From NCBI RefSeq assembly GCF_001648555.1, contig NZ_LQXM01000025.1:186001-250000 (forward strand): 64,000 nucleotides of DNA, in the 5' to 3' direction. Below are positions 7,810 through 60,670 of the stretch, piece by piece. Made by a program: the position numbers and the translations under genes. Position 1 is the first letter of the stretch, and each line of letters begins with the position of its first letter. This DNA comes from Rossellomorea aquimaris TF-12. GTDB lineage: Bacteria > Bacillota > Bacilli > Bacillales > Bacillaceae_B. The notes under the pieces were generated by a model, which worked only from the letters and a program-made list of their open reading frames with translations, made no database searches and had not been told where the DNA came from.

Positions 7810-8151
7810 TTACTGAAAATTCAGGGTATGTCCAATATGTGTACCTGTTTCTTTTACCGTTCCTGCAGGTAATTCAACGACGGAAGATGCATCAGCATAT
7901 AGCTTCCCTGTTTTACCAGGTTCTAAGGCTTCTTCAATCGCTACAATAATGTTTTGCTCATTTACATAAAGGACATCAATTGGGTAGTTCATAAAAAACG
8001 TATGAATGGATCGGCAGGGCTTTATGTGTAAACCAGTGCCTGAGTCGAGCTTATCCGTAAACATCAACCCACGAAGTCTGTTAAAAAAATGATAAGCTTC
8101 CTTTAGTGAATCTGCGATGACTCTCTCATTACTCAGGTTAACAAGCTTCAA
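7810..8151 (-). CDS. DUF192 family protein heading the Tad operon
   Basis: This 113-residue protein carries the DUF192 pattern: RGLMFTDKL, a central CRSIHTFFMNYPIDVLYV and the closing VVELPAGTVKETG. The family is a small beta-fold with no firmly known activity. It has no obvious signal peptide, although many relatives are exported. It starts at TTG behind GGAGGTG, directly downstream of the riboswitch terminator, so it is the first gene controlled by that element. About 105 bp separate it from flp, without a visible terminator, so co-transcription with the pilus genes is likely. Confidence 0.85.
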   Translation of the reverse strand: MKLVNLSNERVIADSLKEAYHFFNRLRGLMFTDKLDSGTGLHIKPCRSIHTFFMNYPIDVLYVNEQNIIVAIEEALEPGKTGKLYADASSVVELPAGTVKETGTHIGHTLNFQ

Positions 8152-8279: not shown

Positions 8280-8382
8280 ATCTCCCTGGATCCTTCGGTA
8301 ACTGGCTGGCATAGTGAATTTATCACCTTAGCCCCTTTAGCTTTGCGTCACTAGTTTTCACCAGCTTTGCCTTTATCGAGAT
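8280..8382 (-). ncRNA. c-di-GMP-I (GEMM-I) riboswitch aptamer
   Basis: Read on the minus strand, the conserved GEMM-I blocks occur in order: AAAGGCAAAGC; a stem closed by a GAAA loop (CTGGTGAAAACTAG); GACGCAAAGCTA; GGGGCTAAGG; and ATGCCAGCCAGTTACCGA. The P1 ends ATCTC and GAGAT pair. These are the nucleotides that bind cyclic di-GMP and form the tetraloop-receptor contact. A terminator lies about 75 bp downstream, then the DUF192-flp-tad operon. The expected role is control of read-through into the pilus operon by c-di-GMP. Whether the ligand turns it on or off cannot be read with certainty. Confidence 0.9.
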
Positions 8383-11015: not shown

Positions 11016-11033
11016 GAATTTGAAAATAAATTA

Positions 11034-11118
11034 GCAGTGACTGGCGAAAATGTGGAATGAACCACAAGGGAGCTGCGAACCTTACAAACTTTAGCCATTA
11101 GCCGATCGCCTGGGCAGA
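11034..11118 (+). ncRNA. ZTP (pfl) riboswitch aptamer
   Basis: The pfl-motif landmarks appear in order: GTGACTGGCG, a stem GTGG-AATGA-ACCAC, the conserved AAGGGAGCTGCG, and the pseudoknot-forming 3' block CCGATCGCCTGGGCA. The motif senses ZTP/ZMP, signals of low 10-formyl-tetrahydrofolate, and commonly precedes folD or purine genes. Here it precedes folD with a terminator between them, so ligand binding should allow read-through when one-carbon folate is short. Confidence 0.93.
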
Positions 11119-11120
11119 AG

Positions 11121-11147
11121 GCAAGGGGATACCCTTGTCTTTTTTTA
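11121..11147 (+). terminator. Terminator in the ZTP riboswitch expression platform
   Basis: CAAGGG-GATA-CCCTTG followed by TCTTTTTTT, two bases after the aptamer. Confidence 0.88.
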
Positions 11148-15628: not shown

Positions 15629-16522
15629 TTATTCAGCTCCTTTTGTTTCACATGTAACATGAAAGAAGTTGTTCCTATCTTCTATTTTCTGCACAAATTT
15701 CATTATGCATTCTCCAATCCCCTGTGGATCGTCCCAATGGAGATTATGACCGCCCTGCCACTCTATCACTTTGACCTCTTTTACGTCATGCTGTAAGGCT
15801 CTAATCCCCTTCTTTCTTGCTTCATGTAGCTCAGCTGGCTCTGATGCATGAATTAATAATAACGGACACTTAACATCCGTATACGCTTCATAAAATGGCT
15901 CTTGAAAAAAAGCTCTTATAATGGAAATACAAGTTTCTTTGGTGGAGATTAGTTGATAAGGGCTCGTTTTTTGAAAGGTGGCTAACGTCACTTTCTCCAA
16001 TTTGGAGTTCCAACGTCTCGTGTACAATTTATACTGATTAAACATTTCCTCATATGAGTTGAATGTAAAGTGTTCAATAAAATCTTCCCACGCTTCAGAT
16101 GTCTTTTTAAAGGACATGTCTTCTTGGTAATGCGGGAATGTGAAGCCGCCGTCTAACATGATTAACCCCTTCACACTTTTAGGAAAACATGAAGCATAAT
16201 GAAGTCCAGTATCTCCTCCCCAAGAGTGACCTACTAAATAAAAAGGCTTATTTAATAAGATTTCCTTGAAGAGTTCTTTATAATAGTGAGCCATTGAGGA
16301 AAATAAGTAATCATTCTCTTCATGAAAAGGATCGGTTTGACCATGACCAGGTTGATCGAAGAGATATATGTGAAAGTCATTTTTTAGATACTCAGCCAAT
16401 TCCAAGAAACTCTCACTACTGCCTGTTAAGCCATGAAAACAGATAAGGGTTGGTTTCCCTGGCTCTCCCCCTACGTAATAATGAACGTTCCGATCTCCAA
16501 TCTGTTTAAAATGAGATTCCAC
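15629..16522 (-). CDS. Alpha/beta hydrolase
   Basis: In this 297-residue alpha/beta-hydrolase fold protein, the oxyanion segment CFHGLTGSS is near residue 28, the nucleophile elbow GHSWGG is near 97, and the catalytic His is in QGGHNLHWDDP near 265. The substrate is unknown; related enzymes include esterases and C-C hydrolases. It starts at GTG after GGAGGAAAAG. It is 16 bp after the upstream gene and abuts msrAB. Confidence 0.88.
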   Translation of the reverse strand: MESHFKQIGDRNVHYYVGGEPGKPTLICFHGLTGSSESFLELAEYLKNDFHIYLFDQPGHGQTDPFHEENDYLFSSMAHYYKELFKEILLNKPFYLVGHSWGGDTGLHYASCFPKSVKGLIMLDGGFTFPHYQEDMSFKKTSEAWEDFIEHFTFNSYEEMFNQYKLYTRRWNSKLEKVTLATFQKTSPYQLISTKETCISIIRAFFQEPFYEAYTDVKCPLLLIHASEPAELHEARKKGIRALQHDVKEVKVIEWQGGHNLHWDDPQGIGECIMKFVQKIEDRNNFFHVTCETKGAE

Positions 16523-36455: not shown

Positions 36456-36463
36456 AATCCAAA

Positions 36464-36505
36464 CAAAAAACCAGCATAACCATCCAATTGGTCATACTGG
36501 TTCTT
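36464..36505 (-). terminator. Terminator of the parM-parR operon
   Basis: Minus strand AACCAGTATGACCA, loop, TGGTTATGCTGGTT, then TTTTT. Confidence 0.85.
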
Positions 36506-36511
36506 TATCAC

Positions 36512-37108
36512 TTACTTATTCATTTGGGAAAGAAAGTCACCTAATAAATCTTCCATACTTTCTTCTTTAGGTTCTTCTTCTATTACTTCCTGTGTTTTCA
36601 TTGCGCTTTCCCAATCAAAATTATCTAATTCAGCATCAGTAGAGTAAGAACGCTCATCTTCTATTTCCTCTTCAGGAGAATCATTGATTACTTGATCAAT
36701 AGACCACTCACGAGAAGAATCATTACTTGCTGCTGTTTCTTCTTGAAGATAAAGTGCTTCATCAATATCTAACGCACTACTGCTTAAGGAAGCGAGAAGA
36801 GAGGCTGTCCGAACAGGATTCGATAAAAGTTGATAAACAATGCTTCCTAATAGAGCTTCAGAGTGTTCGTGCTTCAACCAATCTCGTTGGGACTTGTCCA
36901 ATCCTTTAGGAAGCGGGATGGTAATGGCTTCTCGCTGTTTTGAAATGTTATCATTAACACCACTCACCACAAGCTCTGCAATTTTACTAGAGAAATTTCT
37001 CTTTTCCGTTTCCTTCAGCCTTTGTAAATGCTTTAGAACATGATCAGGTGTATCAGAAGGAATCCGAAATGTAATCGGCTGCCCCCTCGACATTCCCTTT
37101 TCTTTCAT
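36512..37108 (-). CDS. ParR-like centromere-binding adaptor protein
   Basis: In this 198-residue protein the N terminus (QPITFRIPSDTPDHVLKHL, then EKRNFSSKIAELVV) reads as a ribbon-helix-helix DNA-binding domain: one beta strand, two helices. The C-terminal half is acidic and probably disordered, ending in a short amphipathic EDLLGDFLSQMNK that resembles the filament-binding tail of ParR proteins. It starts at ATG after AGGGTGATGAT, 9 bp after the ParM-like stop. Position, fold type and tail fit the adaptor of a type II partition system, bridging DNA repeats and filament ends. The family call is an inference. Confidence 0.7.
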   Translation of the reverse strand: MKEKGMSRGQPITFRIPSDTPDHVLKHLQRLKETEKRNFSSKIAELVVSGVNDNISKQREAITIPLPKGLDKSQRDWLKHEHSEALLGSIVYQLLSNPVRTASLLASLSSSALDIDEALYLQEETAASNDSSREWSIDQVINDSPEEEIEDERSYSTDAELDNFDWESAMKTQEVIEEEPKEESMEDLLGDFLSQMNK

Positions 37109-37117
37109 ATCATCACC

Positions 37118-38293
37118 CTATTTGGTTTTCGCTAATTTTTGTTCTTCTTTTTGTGTTTCTTTTTGATTTTTGCGAGCATAGTCAGCGATTAGCTTATAGT
37201 AAGCATTCGCCATCATCCAGATACTCTCTTTTTCATCTTCAAAGAAGTCAATGTTGTAGCCATCAAGATTGTTATTAAGCGTTTTGATATATTCCTTCAG
37301 AACACTGGAACCTCCACCTATGAAATAGCAGATTTCCGTTTGAGAGTTCTTTTGCCACATATTACGAAGGTGGCGATACTGCTTTTTCGCAAGTTCAAGC
37401 ATAATACGATCCACGATGTCGTGTACGCTTGTGCGACTTCCTTTAACCATTATATGATTACGGTCATTTTTCTTCGTAATGATTTCAACTACATCACGAC
37501 GACTATCTAACTCGATGCCGTGTCTTGAACGAATTTCTTCCCGAATCATTTCAAGGGATTCAGAAACTCCCAGGTTAAAACCTTGTGCTTTATCATCATC
37601 TACTTTTCTATCTTTAATAACAGCGATATCCGTTGATAACCCACCGACATCTTGAATTAAAATTCGTTTATCGATGAGATCTTTATTAATGATGTTTAAA
37701 TTGTTGTCCATTACCAGATTGATAAATGCGGCGAATCCTTCTGGATATACTTTTACTTCATCAAACTTAATGTTCACCTTGATTCCCTGATAGCGAGGAG
37801 TGACTAAAAACTCCACTTGGTGAACAGATCCTAATAGTTTAGAACGGTATCCAACGTCTTTTCCTTCCTTCACTTCACGAAGTGGAAGACCAGTACCTAA
37901 TGTATAATTTGCTTCTATTACATTATTATTCTTTTTAAAATGGGAATCCTGACGCGCTGCATCTAGAGCAATGGAAGCAAACAGCATGATGAGTGTTTGG
38001 TCTTCTTCTGATTTACTGCTACCTGGATCCAATTCAGTAGAGTTATTGCTCTTAGTAGCTAAATTTCCAACACGATAAATAGCATTATTGTCTGATAGAG
38101 TAGGGGAGTGGACACGGATATGTATGCCGTCTAGTGGATCTTGTGTGTCCAGCTCTTCTATACCAATGATAGGGCGATCTTCAATGTCTCTTGCAATAAC
38201 GTTCGGGATATTCACCTCAGAGTCCATTTTTCCAAAAATACCTTTAAGAGAATCATTACCAACGTCAATTGCTGCAATACGAGGGTTTGTCAC
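37118..38293 (-). CDS. ParM-family actin-like ATPase (plasmid-segregation type)
   Basis: This 391-residue actin-fold protein has all the nucleotide-site motifs: phosphate-1 AAIDVGNDSLKG near residue 8, phosphate-2 ILIQDVGGLSTDIAVI near 210 and adenosine motif FIGGGSSVLKEY near 325. Such proteins polymerise with ATP and push or pull DNA apart. It differs from MreB and FtsA and resembles the ParM/StbA proteins of Gram-positive plasmids. GTG 38293, eight bases after AAAGGA, is chosen over a longer frame with an ATG that abuts the same site. It is transcribed from a promoter next to the TGTAC repeat array. Confidence 0.85.
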   Translation of the reverse strand: MTNPRIAAIDVGNDSLKGIFGKMDSEVNIPNVIARDIEDRPIIGIEELDTQDPLDGIHIRVHSPTLSDNNAIYRVGNLATKSNNSTELDPGSSKSEEDQTLIMLFASIALDAARQDSHFKKNNNVIEANYTLGTGLPLREVKEGKDVGYRSKLLGSVHQVEFLVTPRYQGIKVNIKFDEVKVYPEGFAAFINLVMDNNLNIINKDLIDKRILIQDVGGLSTDIAVIKDRKVDDDKAQGFNLGVSESLEMIREEIRSRHGIELDSRRDVVEIITKKNDRNHIMVKGSRTSVHDIVDRIMLELAKKQYRHLRNMWQKNSQTEICYFIGGGSSVLKEYIKTLNNNLDGYNIDFFEDEKESIWMMANAYYKLIADYARKNQKETQKEEQKLAKTK

Positions 38294-38340
38294 AAAAATC
38301 ATCCTTTCTTTCATGAGTAAGAATTTGTCAAAAAATTTCA

Positions 38341-38381
38341 ACTCTTAATTAAAGAGTAAACATTTTTTTGTTATTGGTCAA
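38341..38381 (-). promoter_or_regulatory. Promoter of the parMR operon with overlapping palindrome
   Basis: Minus strand TTGACC (38381-38376), 17 bases, TACTCT (38358-38353). The inverted repeat ACTCTT-AATTA-AAGAGT (38341-38357) overlaps the -10 box and transcription start, a possible operator. Confidence 0.55.
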
Positions 38382-38423
38382 TCCTACTTTCCTATCTATT
38401 ACACAAATGTAATGTAAGGGGGA

Positions 38424-38565
38424 GGTTGTATACAATTTGTTTATTTGTATACGAAACTCGTACACATGCTTATAAATCAACATGTGTACACTTATGTATA
38501 CTTGTACACTTTGTTGTACACAATTGTATACATTTTTGTTTACTTGTACACTTATTTGTAAACTT
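38424..38565. repeat. Centromere-like (parC) repeat array upstream of the ParM-like gene
   Basis: About ten copies of a TGTAC/TATAC-type core (GTGTACAAG, GTATACAA, TTTACAAA variants) lie in 140 bp. On the minus strand the cores end at 38558, 38546, 38538, 38526, 38516, 38504, 38496 and 38486, steps of 8-12 bp that add up to about 10 bp per repeat, placing them on one face of the helix. An inverted pair TGTACACATG/CATGTGTAC follows, then two more cores. Phased short repeats next to parMR are the hallmark of ParR-bound centromeres. Confidence 0.75.
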
Positions 38566-38754
38566 ACATATTTTTCAACTTTTCTCGTACTTTTTCTCTC
38601 CCCTACTTTCACCTAACGAATCATTTTTTAAGAAATAGAAATAGTATTTCATTAGGAAGTAGTATGAAATTTTCAACTAAACGTGTCTCCCCTCCCCTGA
38701 AAAAGTAGAAGAATTAAATTCCTCAGGAAATAATAGAGGGCATTTTTGCTTGAA

Positions 38755-58847: not shown

Positions 58848-60670
58848 GACCAATCATCCTCTTGTGTGGGATCATAAGGGAGGGTAAAAGTAATCGTCGT
58901 ACCTTTCCCTTCGTTACTTGAAGCCCAAACATCTCCACCGTGTGCTGAAATCATTTCTTTTGCGATGGCAAGTCCTAAACCAGTTCCACCCATTTGTCTA
59001 GTCCGGGCCTTATCCACTCGATAAAAACGCTCAAATACTTTATCTAAGTTTTCCTTCGGTATTCCTAAACCTTGGTCAGAAACACTCACTTCAATAAATC
59101 CATTCTTTTCTATCACTTTAAACGTAATCATTCCGCCCTCTGGTGAATATTTCAAAGCGTTTGAAATGATATTATCTAATACCTGAGTGATTTTATCCTG
59201 GTCCACCTCTACAAACATAGACTGTTCTGGTAAGACACGCTTAAATGTAACATTTAAGTCCTTGGTCATATCAAAGCGGTCAATGATACGATGGAAAAAC
59301 AGTATAAAATCTACCCAATCCTTATTGAAACGATAATCTTTACTGTCCATTTTAGACAATTGCAGGAGATCATTTACTAATCGAATCATTCGCTCCGTTT
59401 CATTTTGCGTTACGTCTAAAAATTGTGGTGCAATGTTTTCATCCTGCCAAGCGCCATCGGCTAATGCTTCTAAATAGCTTCTCATGGTCGTCAATGGCGT
59501 TCTTAATTCATGGGAAACATTCGCTACAAATTCACGTCGTTCAAGGTCAATTTTCTCTTGTTCAGTGATATCATGTAAAACAGTAATTAAACCGTTAACA
59601 AATCCTGTTTCTTTTTGAATAATAGAGAAATTCGCACGTAAAATATATGGTTTTTCCTTCGTACTATAATCTAAAATAATGGAATCTTGCTCATTTGAAA
59701 GATCCTCAAAAGTATACTCCTCATCTAAGCCCAGTAACGACACAATGGGTTGAGATAACACTGTTTCACGTGAAACATTCAACATGTTTGCAGCCGGATC
59801 ATTAATAAGAATGACTCTTCCTTTTCGATCCGTGGCAATAACTCCATCCGTCATATAAGAAAGGACAGAAGATAACTTTCTTCGCTCCCCTTCAGTCGTT
59901 GCTTGAGCTTCCTGAAGACGCTTCGTTAGATTATTAAATGTGATGGCCAGCTGCCCAATCTCATCGTAGCCATACACCTTAACTTTTCTGGAGAAATTTC
60001 CTTTTGCCATCGCCAGTGCTTGTTTTCTCATATCTGAAATCGGTCTGGTGACGGTTTGTGCCAGTAAAACACCCAATATAGCTGTAATAGCTAAGGCGAT
60101 TAATGTCCCATTCGTGAAAATTTTATTAATTTCATTCATTTGGTCATATACAGTTTCTATTTTTGCAACAAGATAAATAGCCCCAATGACCTCATTATTT
60201 GAGTTTATTGGCGCTGTATATACCCAAATTCGATTTCCCGTTTGATTATCAAGGTAAATATCATCATAATCAAATCCCGTAGCTAAAACGGCTTTCACAA
60301 GCTTATCCGCTGTCACTTGACCGATTAAACCTTGATTATTAGGCTCTGATGTTCCAATGATACGATTTCGGCTATTAATGACACGAATCTCGGAAATGTC
60401 AGATGTAACACTATCATCAAGTATTTTCCCAATTTCCTCTTCCTCAGTAGGGTCATCTTCAGCACGGTCTTTTTTAAGCATTTCTTCTCGAATTGAATAT
60501 TCAAGTAAATCGACCCTACTTTTAATAGAGGTTTGGAAATTATCTACGAGCTTTTGTTCTAATTCTCTTACAAAATAAACGCCAATAATCTGCATTGCTA
60601 ATAAAATCAGCAATACGTAGATCATGACAAACTTCAAATGTATCGAGCGTGATAAACCCACTTTCTTCAT
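58844..60670 (-). CDS. walK: WalK/YycG, essential sensor histidine kinase
   Basis: This 608-residue kinase of cell-wall homeostasis has two membrane helices (about 13-34 and 187-205) bounding an extracellular PAS-like domain, then HAMP, a cytoplasmic PAS domain, HisKA with phospho-accepting His387 in VSHELRTPL, and the HATPase domain with NALKYSP and DQGLGIP. It phosphorylates WalR. The perfect parS site lies in codons 298-304. The start follows CAGGAG. Confidence 0.97.
   Translation of the reverse strand: MKKVGLSRSIHLKFVMIYVLLILLAMQIIGVYFVRELEQKLVDNFQTSIKSRVDLLEYSIREEMLKKDRAEDDPTEEEEIGKILDDSVTSDISEIRVINSRNRIIGTSEPNNQGLIGQVTADKLVKAVLATGFDYDDIYLDNQTGNRIWVYTAPINSNNEVIGAIYLVAKIETVYDQMNEINKIFTNGTLIALAITAILGVLLAQTVTRPISDMRKQALAMAKGNFSRKVKVYGYDEIGQLAITFNNLTKRLQEAQATTEGERRKLSSVLSYMTDGVIATDRKGRVILINDPAANMLNVSRETVLSQPIVSLLGLDEEYTFEDLSNEQDSIILDYSTKEKPYILRANFSIIQKETGFVNGLITVLHDITEQEKIDLERREFVANVSHELRTPLTTMRSYLEALADGAWQDENIAPQFLDVTQNETERMIRLVNDLLQLSKMDSKDYRFNKDWVDFILFFHRIIDRFDMTKDLNVTFKRVLPEQSMFVEVDQDKITQVLDNIISNALKYSPEGGMITFKVIEKNGFIEVSVSDQGLGIPKENLDKVFERFYRVDKARTRQMGGTGLGLAIAKEMISAHGGDVWASSNEGKGTTITFTLPYDPTQEDDWS
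59762..59777. promoter_or_regulatory. parS: parS, ParB/Spo0J-binding site inside walK
   Basis: TGTTTCACGTGAAACA is an exact, fully palindromic match to the bacterial parS consensus. It encodes part of NVSRETV in walK. Sites of this kind mark the origin region for ParB loading; B. subtilis also has one in yycG to my recollection. Confidence 0.95.

Follow-up and report, generated by a model that had tools for sequence, protein, structure and literature searches.

A cassette on the chromosome of Rossellomorea aquimaris TF-12 is probably an origin-linked actin-type (type II, ParMRC) partition system, long kept in a large part of the order and in some neighbouring families. In ParMRC systems, ParR on phased repeats forms a curved complex and, through its C-terminal peptide, caps the ParM filament, whose dynamics move the DNA. 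The following features were located in a 64,000-nucleotide stretch of contig NZ_LQXM01000025.1 (the window).

36462..36509, minus strand: predicted intrinsic terminator directly behind parR, between parMR and gvp
36512..37108, minus strand: parR, putative DNA-binding adaptor (198 aa; ribbon-helix-helix-like N-terminus, variable acidic linker, C-terminal peptide with invariant FLxxMNK)
37118..38293, minus strand: parM, actin-type ATPase of the Alp7A/ParM group (391 aa; GTG start, RBS GAAAGGATG)
38353..38381, minus strand: candidate parMR promoter (TTGACC - 17 bp - TACTCT), found by eye
38424..38582, minus strand: putative parC-like centromere array (12 GTNNAC boxes, spacings 8/10/12 bp)
38459..38490, no strand assigned: central inverted repeat of the array (GTACACATGTTGAT...AGCATGTGTAC), surrounding a gap in the box series

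An actin-fold ATPase of the ParM group and an adaptor gene in the parM unit place the cassette in type II, and a putative phased repeat centromere adjoins the two genes. Array, parM and parR stand in this order, all on the minus strand. The first-pass annotation, made from the letters of the window, had read a parC-parM-parR plan with a ParM-family ATPase and a helically phased repeat array upstream, set in origin-proximal chromosomal flanks and sharing its strand with a downstream gvpA; these readings were borne out. dnaA lies 55.8 kb to the right of the cassette on the same contig, a perfect palindromic parS-like site (TGTTTCACGTGAAACA) occupies 59762-59777, and gvpA begins on the same strand, 632 bp beyond the stop codon of the adaptor gene. 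Also seen in the window were an imperfect second parS-like site at 15644 and two riboswitches matched by Rfam (c-di-GMP-I, 8294-8381, minus strand; ZMP/ZTP, 11027-11122, plus strand).

The GTG at 38293 is the likely parM start, in preference to the longest open reading frame, because of the ribosome-binding site GAAAGGATG. The predicted protein matched Pfam Alp7A_like_C (PF22128) at E 1.3e-36 (126 bits against a cut-off of 22), which assigns it to the Alp7A family; ALP_N (E 1.5e-9) was also above its cut-off, and PHROG 691 (“partition protein”) matched at E 1.5e-42. A PDB fold search with the AlphaFold model, itself of modest quality (pLDDT 67.7, pTM 0.59), returned ParM of Bacillus thuringiensis, Dh-cParM1, pCBH ParM, pSK41 ParM and Alp7A at the top, with MreB and MamK ranked below them. 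Orthologues in a 49-row alignment were 81-96% identical to the window protein. Computed substitution rates place both cassette genes under purifying selection (median dN/dS, ~0.02 for ParM, from the 14 usable of 16 pairs, and ~0.04 for ParR, from 12 of 16; both values are rough, dS being close to saturation). In one genome (G023:C1:1074393-1075585), ParM was found in three pieces, one with two internal stops, which reflects either an assembly fault or a pseudogene.

The adaptor gene begins 9 bp downstream of parM. Across the loci, the gap measured 8-21 bp in 121 of 126 calls (the 121 in which ParM was called properly), and both genes were present in all 101 oriented loci (98 distinct). Up to E 1, the adaptor had no match in Pfam, NCBIfam or PHROG; a PDB sequence search gave no meaningful match, and a PDB fold search with its AlphaFold model (pTM 0.29) gave no significant one. 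Its N-terminus, GQPITFRIPSDTPDH followed by two helices in that weak model, fits a ribbon-helix-helix layout, and in a 53-row ParR alignment the acidic tail ends in a conserved peptide, DLLGDFLxQMNK. By hhalign, the adaptor is homologous to the open reading frame that follows parM on plasmid pBM69 (99.8% probability, 41% identity over 96 columns).

The 12 GTNNAC boxes upstream of parM span 38428-38563, and two of them overlap (38484 and 38486). From 38484 to 38558, with the overlapping box left out, the spacings are 12-8-12-10-12-8-12 (mean, 10.6 bp), approximately one box per helical turn. When the window was divided into 426 fixed 150-bp bins, the array bin contained 11 boxes and none of the others more than 2. 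Aligning 17 genus loci showed the box positions to be kept, and a sequence-only model (R1) was built from 17 arrays of the genus. An element like the central inverted repeat was matched in part of 40 loci, some of the matches being spurious. The candidate promoter is weak because a consensus scan did not pick up 38353..38381; its AGGATTGACC stretch recurs in several loci. The terminator behind parR has a predicted stability of -27.4 kcal/mol (z, -8.4), equalled in 0 of 200 shuffles.

Model R1 detected an array ahead of ParM in all 59 loci of other genera that were searched, in 20 of 20 further loci (three of which repeat named loci), and in the four genomes read outside the order, one of them weakly (G579, 23.5 bits). 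Box density upstream of ParM was 10.9 per 400 bp, compared with 0.9 in shuffles and 0.6 downstream, and at least five boxes were present there in 76 of 77 non-redundant loci. Within the genus, array and ParM were present or absent together in all 36 genomes (both in 30, neither in 6). In the genome of the window, the model scored no array other than that at ParM. Across the 36 genus genomes, matches away from ParM came only from G012:C2 (E 3.4e-6) and, marginally, from G018 (E 0.0076); as the model scored no more than 77 candidates per genome, weak arrays may have escaped it. Additional chromosomal parC sites in the genome of the window were sought by pattern search and rejected (56 and 70 matches, fewer than the 105 each of the reversed control); among the places listed by that search, clustering occurred only at the ParM locus.

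A second array was seen in a minority of species. It lay ~0.8-1.5 kb upstream of ParM in 8 of the 59 searched named loci (L036, L038, L040, L056, L073, L074, L076 and L079), ~1 kb upstream in L123 and L124, and downstream of ParR in L118, with ~0.5-1.1 kb between the first and second arrays. The stretch between arrays had no conservation in a seven-locus alignment (four of the seven with a second array) and no Rfam match in five loci.

The retention of this DNA element bears on whether a former partition pair has been domesticated as a cytoskeleton, with a role away from DNA such as cell shape, as for FcmBC of Nostoc. As the accessible text of PMC12645912 has it, FcmBC of filamentous cyanobacteria resembles the window pair in being chromosomal and descended from a plasmid-partition actin with its adaptor, and differs in its cell-morphology role and in being closest to the AlfA family. 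This precedent speaks for domestication, and FcmB is the top NCBIfam match of the window ParM, far under the cut-off, however (31 vs 300 bits). Neither the retention of a phased array nor the position near oriC would be explained by a purely cytoskeletal role; the array stands upstream of ParM in every searched locus of other genera and is missing from the genus genomes that lack ParM. We consider domestication unlikely.

Distribution was surveyed in samples of the order and the class. Of 397 genomes in the order sample, 201 had a ParM match at E 7.2e-202 or better, and 19 more had only matches weaker than 1e-24. Among 398 genomes of the class, 32 had a match at E 1e-60 or better, of which 24 were 76-100% identical (the window's own included; 8 of the 24 outside the order, in families f49 and f73) and 8 were 36-45% identical. 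Relatives are encoded in 421 genome stretches, the best 80 of which are 79-96% identical, and where listed, orthologues are 76-96% identical. One orthologue belongs to Bacillus methanolicus PB1 (locus L034). Alp7A_like_C was matched in 0 of 14 control genomes, a set that includes Bacillus subtilis. The cassette is not essential, since it is absent from about half of the order sample and from 6 of 36 genus genomes.

Chromosomal position was measured in a sample picked for few contigs and a strong ParM (left out were G197 of the order and G646, G661, G510 and G574 outside it). In all 41 measured genomes (16 families), ParM lay to the left of dnaA on the opposite strand, at 30.5-286.7 kb and within 150 kb in 37. 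This placement held in 37 of 37 genomes within the order (14 families; median, 82.8 kb) and in 4 of 4 outside it (2 families; median, 52.9 kb); three of three distant homologues (37-45% identical) did not share it. The neighbouring genes vary: after ParM and ParR, no family occurs in more than 24 of the 101 loci. Selection may hold the cassette in place, or it may be a long-standing resident around which genes have come and gone; its constant place near the origin may be due to ancestral inertia of that region and not to selection on position.

In a set of 21 genomes, ParM and DnaA had nearly equal median pairwise identities (0.814 and 0.815). The two distance matrices were correlated (Mantel r, 0.64; 0 of 2,000 permutations), largely through close pairs (Spearman, 0.27), and the trees disagreed at deep branches, where two f41 genomes separated in ParM and G404 (f44) grouped with G379 (f23). 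Exchange between lineages is therefore likely and congruence of the trees partial; on these sequences, the data fall short of strict vertical descent of ParM.

The first-pass annotation had offered an integrated plasmid, one that also carried gvp genes, as a source of the cassette, and had named, as the signs of such a relic, absence of parMR from nearly all related gvp clusters together with a close match to a plasmid cassette and plasmid replication remnants nearby. No close plasmid homologue was found: 35 of 72,556 plasmid records, mostly from Bacillaceae and Paenibacillus, held a ParM match, at 23-43% identity and at best 42-43%; a single match came from phage records (24%). ParMRC systems are classically plasmid-borne, and the pBM69 cassette is a true homologue in both genes. 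The closest plasmid ParM, at 43%, nevertheless compares with 76-96% for the widespread chromosomal orthologues, the ParM dN/dS is low, and all 41 genomes measured have ParM on one side of dnaA in one orientation, which together make a relic of recent plasmid integration extremely improbable.

A different link to mobile DNA would be one of function: the chromosomal ParR and ParM could recognise plasmids with a like centromere, as a guard (incompatibility), or plasmids could borrow the machinery. The relatives at 23-43% identity on plasmids are in keeping with this, as are the G012 contig, which carries boxes and no ParM (relaxase-like and ParA-like open reading frames by eye), and two IMG/VR contigs whose ParM is 73% identical to that of the window. 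Against it, model R1 detected no array in three plasmid cassettes, the G012 boxes have a 12-bp pitch rather than the 10.6-bp one, and linkage to the origin is not predicted. Such a role is improbable in our estimation. The boxes of the G012 contig (L188, G012:C2, 10,968 bp) are five GTNNAC boxes at 7950-8015, spaced 12-12-12-24 bp, possibly a hitch-hiking centromere or iterons. On the IMG/VR contigs (86 and 116 kb), ParM lies at 4549-5688 of L170 and 4992-6131 of L171; the stretch read contains no ParR, the array match is only weak (21.7 bits), and the neighbours look conjugation-like by eye.

The cassette had also been proposed to position or segregate something, possibly gas vesicle clusters. 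Within the genus, gvpN and ParM lie on the same strand and at most 5.4 kb apart in all 26 genomes with both; four genomes had ParM only, one gvpN only and five neither. Across the order sample, 74 genomes carried both, 25 gvpN only, 127 ParM only and 171 neither. This co-occurrence exceeds independence (odds ratio, ~4, or ~3.2 without the genus; not corrected for kinship), which counts against reading gvp as a mere neighbour. The physical association, however, fails across lineages. Among 20 genomes outside the genus that carry both genes on one contig, the distance was 63 kb to 2 Mb in 19 and 10.6 kb in the other (G352, the only one of the 20 within 20 kb); adjacency is nearly genus-specific. 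In the 64 named loci outside the genus, gvpN was found in none of the fetched flanks (at most 10 kb), while the array was present in all 59 that were searched for it. The strong predicted terminator between parMR and gvp, the retention of ParM without gvpN in four genus genomes and the absence of ParM from 25 of 99 gvpN genomes likewise speak against a system for gas vesicle positioning or inheritance, which we regard as very unlikely. The gas vesicle operon is a genus-level neighbour of parMR, not its partner. In the open-licence PMC literature, no work was found that by its title has gas vesicles and ParM as its subject, and nothing joined Rossellomorea with gas vesicles; gas vesicles appear alongside partition, segregation, ParA and inheritance in a megaplasmid review. 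Of the earlier proposal, the idea of segregation stands; position and conservation point to the cell's own origin-proximal chromosome, not the vesicles, as the likely cargo.

Several known systems are comparable with such an origin-linked partition system. Alp7A/Alp7R is an actin ATPase and adaptor of a B. subtilis plasmid. It resembles the window pair in pairing an ATPase with an adaptor, and Alp7A_like_C is the best Pfam match of the window ParM; in contrast to that pair it is plasmid-borne, and Alp7A (structure 5ec0) is absent from the PDB sequence matches of the window ParM up to E 1. The pBM69 cassette of Bacillus methanolicus MGA3 has a ParM 42% identical to the window's and an adaptor homologous over 96 residues of the N-terminal part, but that adaptor is shorter (144 aa), and no array is detectable there by model R1. 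ParABS (Soj/Spo0J-parS), a partition system of the chromosome, is likewise origin-proximal and occurs in the same genomes (by its ParB family); its ATPase is of another class than ParM and not homologous.

Chromosomal ParMR pairs are already known. The accessible text of PMC12270681 describes such cassettes (cParMR) as Dh-cParM1 of Desulfitobacterium, Cb-cParM of Clostridium botulinum and Bt-cParM of Bacillus tropicus, the last with a ParM reported as conserved on several Bacillus chromosomes. The window cassette, too, resides on the chromosome and is conserved within a taxon, as is asked of a cParMR; the two share a chromosomal ParM-fold ATPase with an adaptor, conservation within a group and company with ParAB genes (PMC12270681, same text). 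No cparC conserved across Clostridium strains is identified in that text, nor is origin linkage seen in it, whereas in the window group position and array are conserved over many families and the cassette is origin-linked (Bt-cParM was compared by description only). For chromosomal ParMR, neither origin linkage nor a conserved centromere was found described in the accessible text of the open-licence PMC literature. According to the same portion of PMC12270681, no part in chromosome segregation has so far been attributed to ParCMR.

The cassette may help to move the chromosome, because it is located near the replication start wherever this was measured. By homology to ParMRC and Alp7, ParM would form filaments, ParR would bind the boxes, and the terminal peptide of ParR would contact the filament. 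ParR dimers would load via their ribbon-helix-helix domains onto the phased array, which offers roughly one GTNNAC box per turn, and the loaded boxes would form a curved partition complex 30-290 kb to the left of oriC. Exposed C-terminal DLLGDFLxQMNK peptides could then bind the end of a ParM-ATP filament, whose growth would push, or whose controlled loss would pull, the sister copies of the origin-proximal left arm apart; alternatively, the filament might anchor the origin-proximal region at a pole. Two ParB-family genes were found near dnaA in 21 of 21 genomes tested, so ParMRC would work alongside Soj/Spo0J (ParABS) rather than take its place. We tentatively propose that, in roughly half of an order of Bacilli, a ParMRC system whose centromere lies next to oriC works in parallel with ParABS to move the origin region or to tether it.

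Actin-type partition systems are known for the movement of plasmids. A ParMRC system with a DnaA-like median divergence, a fixed side and orientation near oriC in 16 families and a conserved centromere makes a concrete candidate for chromosome movement by actin in bacteria, one that can be tested; the natural pairs of presence and absence within one genus offer a ready comparison.
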